Shown piece by piece: positions 34,153 through 36,656 of a stretch of DNA of 64,000 bases. The notes under the pieces are model-generated. The model saw nothing but the letters and a program-made list of their open reading frames with translations, searched no databases and was not told the DNA's origin. This stretch comes from Candidatus Baltobacteraceae bacterium (GTDB lineage Bacteria; Vulcanimicrobiota; Vulcanimicrobiia; Vulcanimicrobiales; Vulcanimicrobiaceae): NCBI GenBank assembly GCA_036489885.1, contig DASXEW010000001.1:620001-684000 (forward strand), in the 5' to 3' direction. The translations under genes and the position numbers were made by a program. Within the stretch, counting starts at the first letter, position 1. Each line of letters begins with the position of its first letter.

Positions 34153-36303
34153 GTGGGGACTGGCCTCGGGATACGCATCGGTATCGACGTCGGCGGCACG
34201 TTTACTGATGCCGTTGCAATAGACGCGACCTCGCTGGAGCTGATCGGTCATGTCAAGGTCCCGACGACGCATCGTTCGCCGCAGGGCGTAGCGGCTGGGA
34301 TCATCGAGGCGCTGCAGCGTTTGCTTTCGACGCACAATCTGCAGGCATCCGACGTGCGCTACATTTCGCACGGTACGACGCAAGCCACGAACGCACTACT
34401 CGAGGGCGACGTTGCACTCGTTGGGATTGTCGGAATCGGCGGGGGACTCGAAGGCTTGCGGGCCCGTTCCCAGACGTTCATCAAGCCGATCGAGCTCGCG
34501 CCTGGTACGTATCTGCGTTCGATGCGCGAGTTTCTTGCGACGTCGGCGCCGAGCGCAGAGGACGCCGATCGTGCTATTCGCGCGTTGCTTGGACAAGGTG
34601 CAGGCGTGATCGTAGCCAGCGGTTTGTATAGCGTTGACGATTCTACGGCGGAAGACACGGTGACGGACGCGGCACGGCGCGCGAATGTTCCCGCGGCTGC
34701 GGCCCACCAGATCAGCAAGCTCTACGGTTTGCGAACGCGGACGAGGACCGCCGTGATTAACGCGTCGATCTTGCCGCGAATGATTGAAACGGCCAACAGT
34801 GTGGAATCGAGCGTCAGCAGTGCGGGGATCACCTCGCCGCTCATGATCATGCGAGGCGACGGCGGCGTGATGCGAATCGATCAACTGCGCAGCCGTCCGA
34901 TACTGACGCTGGTCTCCGGGCCCGCAGCCGGAGTGGCTGGCGCGCTCATGTACGAGCGCGTCTCGGATGCAGTCTTTCTGGAAGTCGGTGGAACGAGCGT
35001 CGACATTTCGGCGATTCGCGACGGTCGCGTCCAAGTGCGCTACGCGATGCTCGGCGGCCACCGAACGTTTCTGCAGTCACTCGACGTCCGCTCGATCGGA
35101 ATCGGCGGCGGGTCGATGGTGCGCGTTCGCAACGGAAAGATCGACGTCGGTCCTCGCAGCGCGCACATTGCGGGGCTCGACTATGCGGTCTACGCGAGTT
35201 CCGGCGCGTGCGCAAACGCGCGGTTGATCGAATTTCGTCCGTTGCCGTCCGATCCCGAAGACTACATCGCGGTTGACGCCGCAGGTCGACGCTCGGCGTT
35301 GACGCTCTCGTGCGCGGCCAACATTGCCGGGTTTGTTCCGGATGGAGACTGGGCGCGAGGTGATGTGGAAAACGCGCGAGTCGCGTTCGGACCGCTGGCT
35401 GAACGTTTCGGTTGTACGGTCGATGAGATCGCGCGGGCCGTTATCGATGCAGCGGTTGCGAAGACACGCTCGACTGTCGACGAGTTGGCGGCCGATTACG
35501 GCCTGGACCTAAAGCGAATGGTGTTGGTTGGCGGCGGGGGCGGAGCTTCGGCGCTCGTTCCAGCGCTCGCGAAGACACTCGGCTGCGAATTCCGCATCGC
35601 GCGAAACGCGCACGTCATCTCGCCTATCGGCGTGGCGCTGGCGCTGGTACGTGACGTCGTCGAACGCATGATCCCGAGTCCCACGCCTCTGGACATCGCG
35701 CAGATTCGAGCGGAAGCGGAAGATGCCGCCGTCGCGGCCGGAGCGGCGCGCGAGAGCGTCGAGGTCGATGTCAGCGTCGATTCTCAGCGCAACATCGTGC
35801 GTGCCGCTGCCAGCGGAGCGACTGAGCTGCGCGCGCGAGATCTCAGGCGTATGGAAGCCGCCGAAGACGAGCGGCGCAGCATCGCGGCCGAGTCGATGGG
35901 CGCAGCGCCCGAGGTCCTCGAGCTGGCGGCAAGCACACCGCAGTTTTCCGTTTATACGGCGCGAATGCAGCCGTCGGGTTTGTTGCGCTATTTCGGATCC
36001 GCGAAAGATCCCGTGCGCGTCATCGACCGCGAAGGCGTGATTCGGTTACGCGTGCCGGACGCGCGGATCGTCCCAACGACGATCGCGCAGGCCGAAGATG
36101 AGCTGCGTGAGATTCTCGAGGCACTGACGTCGTACGGCGACGCTGGGAAGATGCTTCCCGCGCTGCACTTGCTGCTGCGTGACCGGATCGTCAACTTGAG
36201 CGGGATGGTCGATCCGGAGCTCGTGGTCACGATCGCATCCGACCATCTTCGTACGATGAGCGCCACCGAACCGGGCATCATCGTCGCCGAGCATCGCGCG
36301 TGA
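34153..36303 (+). CDS. Hydantoinase/oxoprolinase-family protein (HyuA-like)
   Basis: A 716-residue ATP-dependent hydantoinase/oxoprolinase A-type protein of the actin-like ATPase fold. The N-terminal phosphate motif is RIGIDVGGTFTDAVAID; ISHGTTQATNALLEG and GGTSVDISAIRDGR are further conserved nucleotide-site segments. It normally pairs with a HyuB subunit, which is absent here; instead a mini-metallopeptidase and a transporter follow in GTGA overlaps. GTG 34153 places the motif at residue 8, as usual; the longer reading crosses proC antisense. The substrate is unknown (hydantoins, 5-oxoproline or other cyclic amides in relatives). Confidence 0.85.
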   Translation: MGTGLGIRIGIDVGGTFTDAVAIDATSLELIGHVKVPTTHRSPQGVAAGIIEALQRLLSTHNLQASDVRYISHGTTQATNALLEGDVALVGIVGIGGGLEGLRARSQTFIKPIELAPGTYLRSMREFLATSAPSAEDADRAIRALLGQGAGVIVASGLYSVDDSTAEDTVTDAARRANVPAAAAHQISKLYGLRTRTRTAVINASILPRMIETANSVESSVSSAGITSPLMIMRGDGGVMRIDQLRSRPILTLVSGPAAGVAGALMYERVSDAVFLEVGGTSVDISAIRDGRVQVRYAMLGGHRTFLQSLDVRSIGIGGGSMVRVRNGKIDVGPRSAHIAGLDYAVYASSGACANARLIEFRPLPSDPEDYIAVDAAGRRSALTLSCAANIAGFVPDGDWARGDVENARVAFGPLAERFGCTVDEIARAVIDAAVAKTRSTVDELAADYGLDLKRMVLVGGGGGASALVPALAKTLGCEFRIARNAHVISPIGVALALVRDVVERMIPSPTPLDIAQIRAEAEDAAVAAGAARESVEVDVSVDSQRNIVRAAASGATELRARDLRRMEAAEDERRSIAAESMGAAPEVLELAASTPQFSVYTARMQPSGLLRYFGSAKDPVRVIDREGVIRLRVPDARIVPTTIAQAEDELREILEALTSYGDAGKMLPALHLLLRDRIVNLSGMVDPELVVTIASDHLRTMSATEPGIIVAEHRA

Positions 36304-36656
36304 CCGCGCGCGCCCTCGCCAAGCGTTTAGGCGCCAAGATTGTCGAGCGCCGCGGGGGGATCGGTGAGGATCGCTGGATCATCTCGGAATTCGATGCACG
36401 TGAAAAGACGATCGTGATCTATCTCGACACGCTCGAGATGCTCTCAGAGTTGGTGCTCGTCAACGATTTGCCGTTCGATCCGGAGCATCTCGACGAGATT
36501 GCGATCGCGCACGAGTGCTTTCATATGATCTCCGGGAGTTCGCACGGTCCGCAAGGCGAAGAGGACGCGCATAGGTTTGCGCGCGAGCTCCTCGATTTGC
36601 CGGCCTCACCGGAGTTGCTCAACGAGCTTTTGAGCCGTCAATCAGGTCAGCCGTGA
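36300..36656 (+). CDS. Mini ImmA/IrrE-like metallopeptidase-domain protein
   Basis: A 118-residue protein with a zinc-peptidase motif HECFH (in IAIAHECFHMISG) and, about 17 residues later, EEDAHRFARELLDLP, matching the HExxH...E-xx-A-xx-FA-xxLL-P layout of the ImmA/IrrE (DUF955) family. No HTH is present. Family members cleave repressor proteins or act in stress responses. Here it is locked by GTGA overlaps between the hydantoinase-like gene and a transporter gene, so a role in that pathway is more likely than phage control. Family assignment rests on the motif only. Confidence 0.65.
   Translation: MTARALAKRLGAKIVERRGGIGEDRWIISEFDAREKTIVIYLDTLEMLSELVLVNDLPFDPEHLDEIAIAHECFHMISGSSHGPQGEEDAHRFARELLDLPASPELLNELLSRQSGQP

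Follow-up and report, generated by a model that had tools for sequence, protein, structure and literature searches.

Examination of a 64,000-nt stretch of a Candidatus Baltobacteraceae genome (the window) and of its relatives indicates that a HyuA-type ATPase, a small HExxH protein and a symporter-like transporter almost certainly make up a conserved module, usually accompanied by an enzyme of the FAD_oxidored family. The small protein is best read, from its sequence and predicted fold, as a minigluzincin-type zinc hydrolase. As an explanation of the whole we favor a zinc-dependent hydrolase that works with HyuA, perhaps in the place of HyuB, and we hold this tentatively, at somewhat below an even chance.

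The window locus and the predicted fold of the small protein

A first-pass annotation of the window had described a small HExxH gene held between a hydantoinase-type ATPase gene and a carrier gene, and this arrangement is confirmed (Table 1). A dicodon model trained on long open reading frames scores the small frame as coding (23.3) and assigns HyuA its GTG start. Given a homologue in a second genome and a family profile match at 5.5e-8, the small gene is not a chance reading frame. It also starts with GTG, its product continues from residue 87 as EEDAHRFARELLDLP, and it is joined to the gene on either side by the 4-nt GTGA overlaps of stop and start codons that had been noted at first pass. 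The window HyuA matches the Pfam models Hydantoinase_A (5e-65) and Hydant_A_N (3e-27). No Pfam or NCBIfam model matches the small protein at E ≤ 1, no HTH domain is found in it with Pfam, and no Pfam model matches the transporter at that threshold either. The earlier remark that no HTH or phage gene lies near agrees with the coding-model gene list of the window.

Table 1. Features of the module locus, in window coordinates
Feature	Position	Strand	Description and basis
Small gene (subject)	36300..36656	+	118-aa minigluzincin-like HExxH...E protein; open reading frame, coding model, profile match, fold model
HyuA-type (hydantoinase/oxoprolinase) ATPase, 716 aa	34153..36303	+	Pfam PF01968 and PF05378; coding model, GTG start
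HyuA C-terminal domain	35653..36300	+	no Pfam match; classical Hydant_A_C not found
GTGA overlap, HyuA/small gene	36300..36303	+	sequence
HECFH, residues 71-75	36510..36524	+	two predicted zinc ligands and catalytic Glu
Glu87, predicted third zinc ligand, next helix	36558..36560	+	invariant column; helix 84-98 in model
GTGA overlap, small gene/transporter	36653..36656	+	sequence
Transporter, 429 aa	36653..37942	+	distantly like citrate/gluconate symporters; no Pfam match

In an AlphaFold2 model (pLDDT 92.6, pTM 0.88) the 118-aa protein has an active-site helix at 61-78 and a glutamate helix at 84-98, so that HExxH is followed by a Glu on the next helix, as in the compact catalytic domain of about 100 residues by which minigluzincins are recognized. 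When the model was compared with the PDB by Foldseek there was no row at E ≤ 0.001, and the seven best rows were all selecase, abylysin or jannalysin (E 2.9e-3 to 2.7e-2, probability 0.96-1.00). VIA-align gave Z scores that were all below 8: 7.3 for BepA, 7.2 for YbeY, 7.0 for PprI, 6.8 for abylysin and 6.6 for IrrE (3dti, 77 residues at 2.5 Å), with six entries of the minigluzincins selecase, abylysin and jannalysin at 6.0-6.8 and 4qhh at 4.1. Among viral models a phage peptidase came first (E 2.7e-3), and several IrrE-like phage proteins ranked lower. Because these matches are all middling, the zincin class is clear but the exact family is not. The family profile A2 returned a single non-significant row (E 0.34) from PDB sequences.

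The archaeal minigluzincins resemble the window protein in size (~105-118 aa), in HExxH with a distal Glu and in providing the best Foldseek rows; they differ in that the window protein is linked to a HyuA/transporter module and that the family profile finds no significant sequence match in the PDB. The first-pass annotation had called the protein ImmA/IrrE-like, which was roughly right as to fold class. As in M78 (ImmA/IrrE) peptidases, HExxH is followed by E..A..FA (EEDAHRFARELL is the stretch beginning at residue 87 of the 118-aa window protein). The M78 model itself (PF06114) matches 12 of 41 members at E ≤ 1, one relative exactly at the gathering score of 22.0 bits, but not the window protein, which we therefore call M78-like and not an M78 member. 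It also differs from that group in that we saw no HTH domain, mobile-element setting or other ImmA-type context, and no repressor regularly next to the gene at the bacterial loci.

Distribution of the family and its gene neighborhoods

As the sole query against 98 related genomes, the window protein finds just its own genome and G001, the other genome of the genus examined, where a homologue of 45% identity lies between the same two genes; against the wider genome contigs and viral contigs it finds nothing. These searches come back empty because the window version is too divergent, and the family came to light through relatives of HyuA and the transporter. Homologues of the transporter (E ≤ 1e-5) occur in 72 of the 98 genomes and of HyuA (E ≤ 1e-20) in 74. 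A HExxH protein of 102-120 aa was present downstream of HyuA in four of the first 20 stretches examined, and a search with one such protein gave matches in 60 genomes. With an all-types profile the family is found in 62 genomes, in single copy except for two copies in G014; family f3 (14 genomes) has neither the small gene nor, at E ≤ 1e-20, HyuA. A profile built from 60 sequences outside the window's genus recovers both the window protein (5.5e-8) and its G001 homologue (5.6e-6). The reading of the gene as a lone oddity was dropped once the family surfaced downstream of HyuA in related genomes, and a role in phage or plasmid maintenance was dropped in view of the 62 carriers and of the metabolic neighbors at the loci examined.

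The predicted metal site is conserved. Of 62 distinct sequences, 61 have HExxH; the 62nd is cut by the end of its locus and is complete in L106. H71, E72, H75 and the distal Glu are invariant in a 24-row alignment and in 21 representatives, and among the latter no other column is invariant. Conservation of HExxH and of the distal Glu had been proposed as a check on the first reading, and the feared homologues without HExxH did not turn up. Linkage, the other proposed check, is likewise not unique to the window's genome: a single contig carries both HyuA and the small gene in 48 of the 62 genomes, including both of the window's genus, and in every one of these the small gene has the strand of HyuA and lies 0-12.9 kb downstream. 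For the remaining 14 there was no HyuA row on the small gene's contig among the matches listed. G015, which belongs to family f1, carries this HyuA on a 7.3-kb contig, and the small gene was not found in it.

Scanning named genomes for the motif gave 68 loci. The records of 63 are titled Eremiobacterota, Eremiobacteria, Vulcanimicrobiota or "bacterium"; these loci and the related genomes are not independent sets, since many of the contigs seem to occur in both. Of the remaining five (L228 and L230-L233), L230 matches the motif by chance within other genes. Homologues of the small protein without a HyuA in the stretch covered were seen in a Candidatus Hebobacteria MAG (L228:7923-8342) and a Dive96 MAG (L232:7791-8453). 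Of the 65 loci with a called small gene, 60 have a BadF-family kinase, 56 a FAD_oxidored gene and 43 HyuA, and in 54 FAD_oxidored lies directly before the small gene and the kinase directly after. The strict co-production suggested at first pass holds for the window locus; in these 54 the immediate neighbors are instead the genes for a FAD oxidoreductase and for a NagK-like kinase. The more complete loci run in the order GH20, transporter, (M20, methyltransferase), HyuA, FAD_oxidored, small gene, NagK-like kinase and ManNAc-6-P epimerase; SSF and NanE-type genes also occur with the M20 peptidase and GH20 genes. The epimerase model scores above its cut-off in this native cluster and the NagK model below. 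By inference from this gene content, the native cluster appears to be an amino-sugar catabolic setting.

The module is also seen in other lineages. An Alphaproteobacteria MAG carries transporter, HyuA and small gene, broken off at the contig end, and a Bacillota MAG carries HyuA and small gene; both loci were found via the motif, so that HExxH there is not independent evidence. Plasmid records gave ten matches to this HyuA, with a family member behind it in six; a small HExxH protein follows HyuA in two Haladaptatus records, one Halostagnicola record, one Halocatena record and Streptomyces sp. NBC_01237, and in a second Halocatena record it appears in the same place as a tblastn match only. 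The Streptomyces order is FAD, HyuA, small gene, transporter. The Selenomonas and Deinococcus plasmids have no small HExxH gene just downstream of HyuA, and in two E. faecium plasmid records the match covers 26% of HyuA only. Enterococcus faecium plasmids also carry a transporter homologue (L236, typed conjugative), and in H27 and H28 the short HyuA match adjoins it.

In other lineages of the phylum, a HExxH frame lies within about 1.4 kb downstream of HyuA in eight of 19 genomes (G085, G088, G089, G091, G097, G104, G105 and G106), at gaps of 0 to 0.4 kb; the small genes of family f10 were located by open-frame search, G083 and G094 were left out of the 19 because HyuA is cut, and the other 11 have this HyuA with no small HExxH gene just downstream. 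Since HExxH was the search criterion here, it is the frequency that counts, namely 8 of 19 against a background of 6 of 459 small called proteins, a figure that itself includes one such HyuA-linked gene. Taken singly, the proteins of the haloarchaea, Streptomyces and G089 give weak or non-significant E values (0.006 to 3.1) against the core profile at a database size of 1000. When these proteins are aligned with one another as six long forms and compared profile to profile, they match the core family at 1.5e-8 (probability 95.5; reversed control 0.0035); the six were chosen by position, leaving out the Bacillota protein and L231. In G081 what comes after this type of HyuA is a large, presumably DUF4127-like protein (L074:6087-7583) and no small zincin.

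The window transporter is 28% identical to its Alphaproteobacteria relative, whose plasmid homologues are annotated as gluconate:proton symporter, SLC13 permease or citrate transporter. This annotation is what likens it to the CitMHS/GntP-like symporters of sugar acids and citrate; it is set apart from them by an identity of 24-34% to the annotated plasmid homologues and by its own lack of a Pfam match. A longer relative of the transporter matches the citMHS model far below its cut-off.

HyuA without an adjacent HyuB and the possible role of the small protein

Characterized HyuA subunits activate the carbonyl of their substrate with ATP, and the characterized ATP-dependent hydantoinases are two-subunit enzymes. 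The gene clusters of such hydantoinases are described, in the relevant passage of PMC5214803, as just two genes, alpha and beta. HyuB is present in 44 of the 98 related genomes. No HyuB was found beside a module HyuA in any of the 98, and in the seven cases of a shared contig the two are at least 65 kb apart. Among 68 genomes with a module HyuA (E < 1e-100), 28 are without HyuB (no PF02538 match at E ≤ 1e-10), and 12 of the 28 are at least 95% complete. The earlier statement that HyuB is missing is accurate for the window locus and not for the genome, which has two copies, one ~500 kb off on the same contig and one on contig C3.

Module HyuAs resemble those of HyuAB and caprolactamase (CapAB) in having both N-terminal Pfam domains and in keeping the Asp of IDVGGT where that segment is present. 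They differ in having no HyuB partner found and a small zincin in the neighborhood instead, and in the absence of the C-terminal domain PF19278 (Hydant_A_C) from all five tested; the domain is present in a HyuB-paired paralogue. The region in its place in the window HyuA is well conserved in 29 rows and has an AlphaFold2 model of pLDDT 91.9 and pTM 0.72; Foldseek gave no PDB match at E ≤ 0.001, no convincing fold emerged from the PDB comparisons, and no HyuA-type chain was among the matches listed; even so, the fold may be a shared one. The Selenomonas HyuA lacks PF19278 and the small gene alike, so loss of this domain does not track the small gene. A further difference lies at D295 of CapA, which by alignment numbering corresponds to the acid before GGTS, a Glu in 34 and an Asp in 3 of 37 module HyuAs.

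Caprolactamase requires both the ATP site in CapA and the metal site in CapB, as stated in the pertinent part of PMC8453981. From this double requirement and the D295 equivalence we infer for the module a carbonyl-activating HyuA acting with a metal hydrolase, a chemistry to which we give rather less than an even chance. The substrate brought in by the transporter would be a small amide or a lactam, which may come from an amino sugar or a sugar acid; HyuA would activate the carbonyl of the imported substrate with ATP; and the small protein, whether bound as a subunit or following HyuA as a separate enzyme, would perform the metal-dependent hydrolytic step, as the HyuB metal site does in caprolactamase. 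That the small protein might stand in HyuB's place had been suggested at first pass. The suggestion gains from the lack of a nearby HyuB, from the 28 carriers without HyuB and from the missing C-terminal domain in the five tested, and it loses from those HyuAs of this type with no small gene just downstream, which in 11 of the 19 genomes above and in Selenomonas and Deinococcus imply that HyuA may work without the small protein.

The main rival, which we regard as unlikely, is a regulatory or maturation protease, in which the small protein, in the manner of ImmA/IrrE, BlaR1-type zincins or selecase, would respond to substrate by cutting or trimming one of the module's proteins, be it HyuA, the transporter or a regulator. 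The list of similar folds includes IrrE/PprI, BepA, BlaR1 and selecase, a HyuA with no small gene nearby is what one would expect of a regulator, and IclR regulators adjoin four haloarchaeal modules; on the other hand, a core form of ~100-120 aa leaves little room for sensing, the window protein shows no HTH match, and no repressor or other regulator regularly adjoins the small gene in the 65 bacterial loci. Against a partnership with HyuA count the homologues at L228 and L232, with no HyuA in the stretch covered, and the 54 loci that couple the small gene to FAD_oxidored and BadF/NagK genes and not to HyuA. Together with the catabolic M20, GH20, SSF and NanE-type genes, these 54 loci would suit a stand-alone amidase or peptidase whose substrate is a small peptide or an N-acyl product and whose step precedes or follows that of HyuA or of the FAD enzyme, with no contact with HyuA itself. 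We consider this improbable, as the small gene directly follows HyuA in other lineages, and in the window's genus it accompanies HyuA and the transporter while the FAD and kinase genes lie elsewhere. In HExxH the catalytic Glu shows the same invariance as the zinc ligands, and a purely structural site would not need it, which makes it very improbable that the protein is a metal-binding scaffold or subunit for HyuA assembly with no hydrolytic activity, even though its very small size and the overlap or abutment of its gene with HyuA in several lineages would fit such a part.

Under the favored reading, a zinc-dependent hydrolase working with HyuA, the pairing of HyuA with a tiny zincin without HyuB would represent another means of completing the ATP-driven opening of stable amides, and minigluzincin-like proteins would gain a metabolic role. 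A wider claim, which we hold to be doubtful, is that the module represents an undescribed class of ATP-dependent amidohydrolases, distributed among both bacteria and archaea. In this class a minigluzincin of 100-200 residues would take over from HyuB as the hydrolytic half that bears the metal, and it would pass horizontally in a single cassette along with its HyuA and transporter. We found no paper on a HyuA-associated small zincin in the open-licence PMC literature, as judged by titles and the starts of abstracts. At 118 aa, the small protein should be easy to express and assay.

Apparent cassette replacement in the genus of the window

The window's genome has one match each for the transporter, HyuA (E ≤ 1e-20) and the small gene, and all three lie in the window. 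The rest of the native cluster is on contig C3, where the FAD gene runs straight into the kinase gene by a 4-nt overlap, the small gene being absent from between them, and where a 241-aa remnant behind GH20 (L162:6048-6773) corresponds to the C-terminal domain of the native long transporter. In G001 the FAD and kinase genes are adjacent on one contig, and a gene for the transporter C-terminal domain lies behind GH20 on another (L164:771-1505). The remnant domain (L162, L164) is weakly PDZ-like, and the membrane part sits in the window operon.

In a transporter tree of 35 rows, the window, G001 and Streptomyces sequences are joined with support of 100/100, and placing the transporter in one clade with 18 sequences of the family is rejected (lnL 114 lower, p-AU 4e-117). 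A HyuA tree of 36 rows, from which a long paralogue row and Deinococcus were left out, follows the same trend more weakly (89/86, p-AU 0.034). One column of the small protein is Asn in 56 of 60 core sequences and Tyr both in the window protein and in 9 of 14 outside representatives. Apparently, then, a HyuA-small gene-transporter cassette in the Streptomyces order was acquired and the three native genes were lost. This reading is tempered in several ways: GC3 of the three window genes (0.72-0.73) is normal for the window, there is a long-branch warning in the transporter tree where the window/G001/Streptomyces trio meets the haloarchaea, the tested groups were named after a first tree, and Streptomyces is the one close outside sequence. 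Old paralogy may instead account for the pattern. The exchange of a foreign cassette for three dispersed native genes would amount to a natural experiment indicating that the three belong together.

A second BadF-family kinase lies about 45 kb away from the window operon (L165, C1:700000-706000 of the same genome), next to a protein that, judging from its first residues, we take to resemble an anhydro-MurNAc kinase; this is a possible amino-sugar recycling locus.
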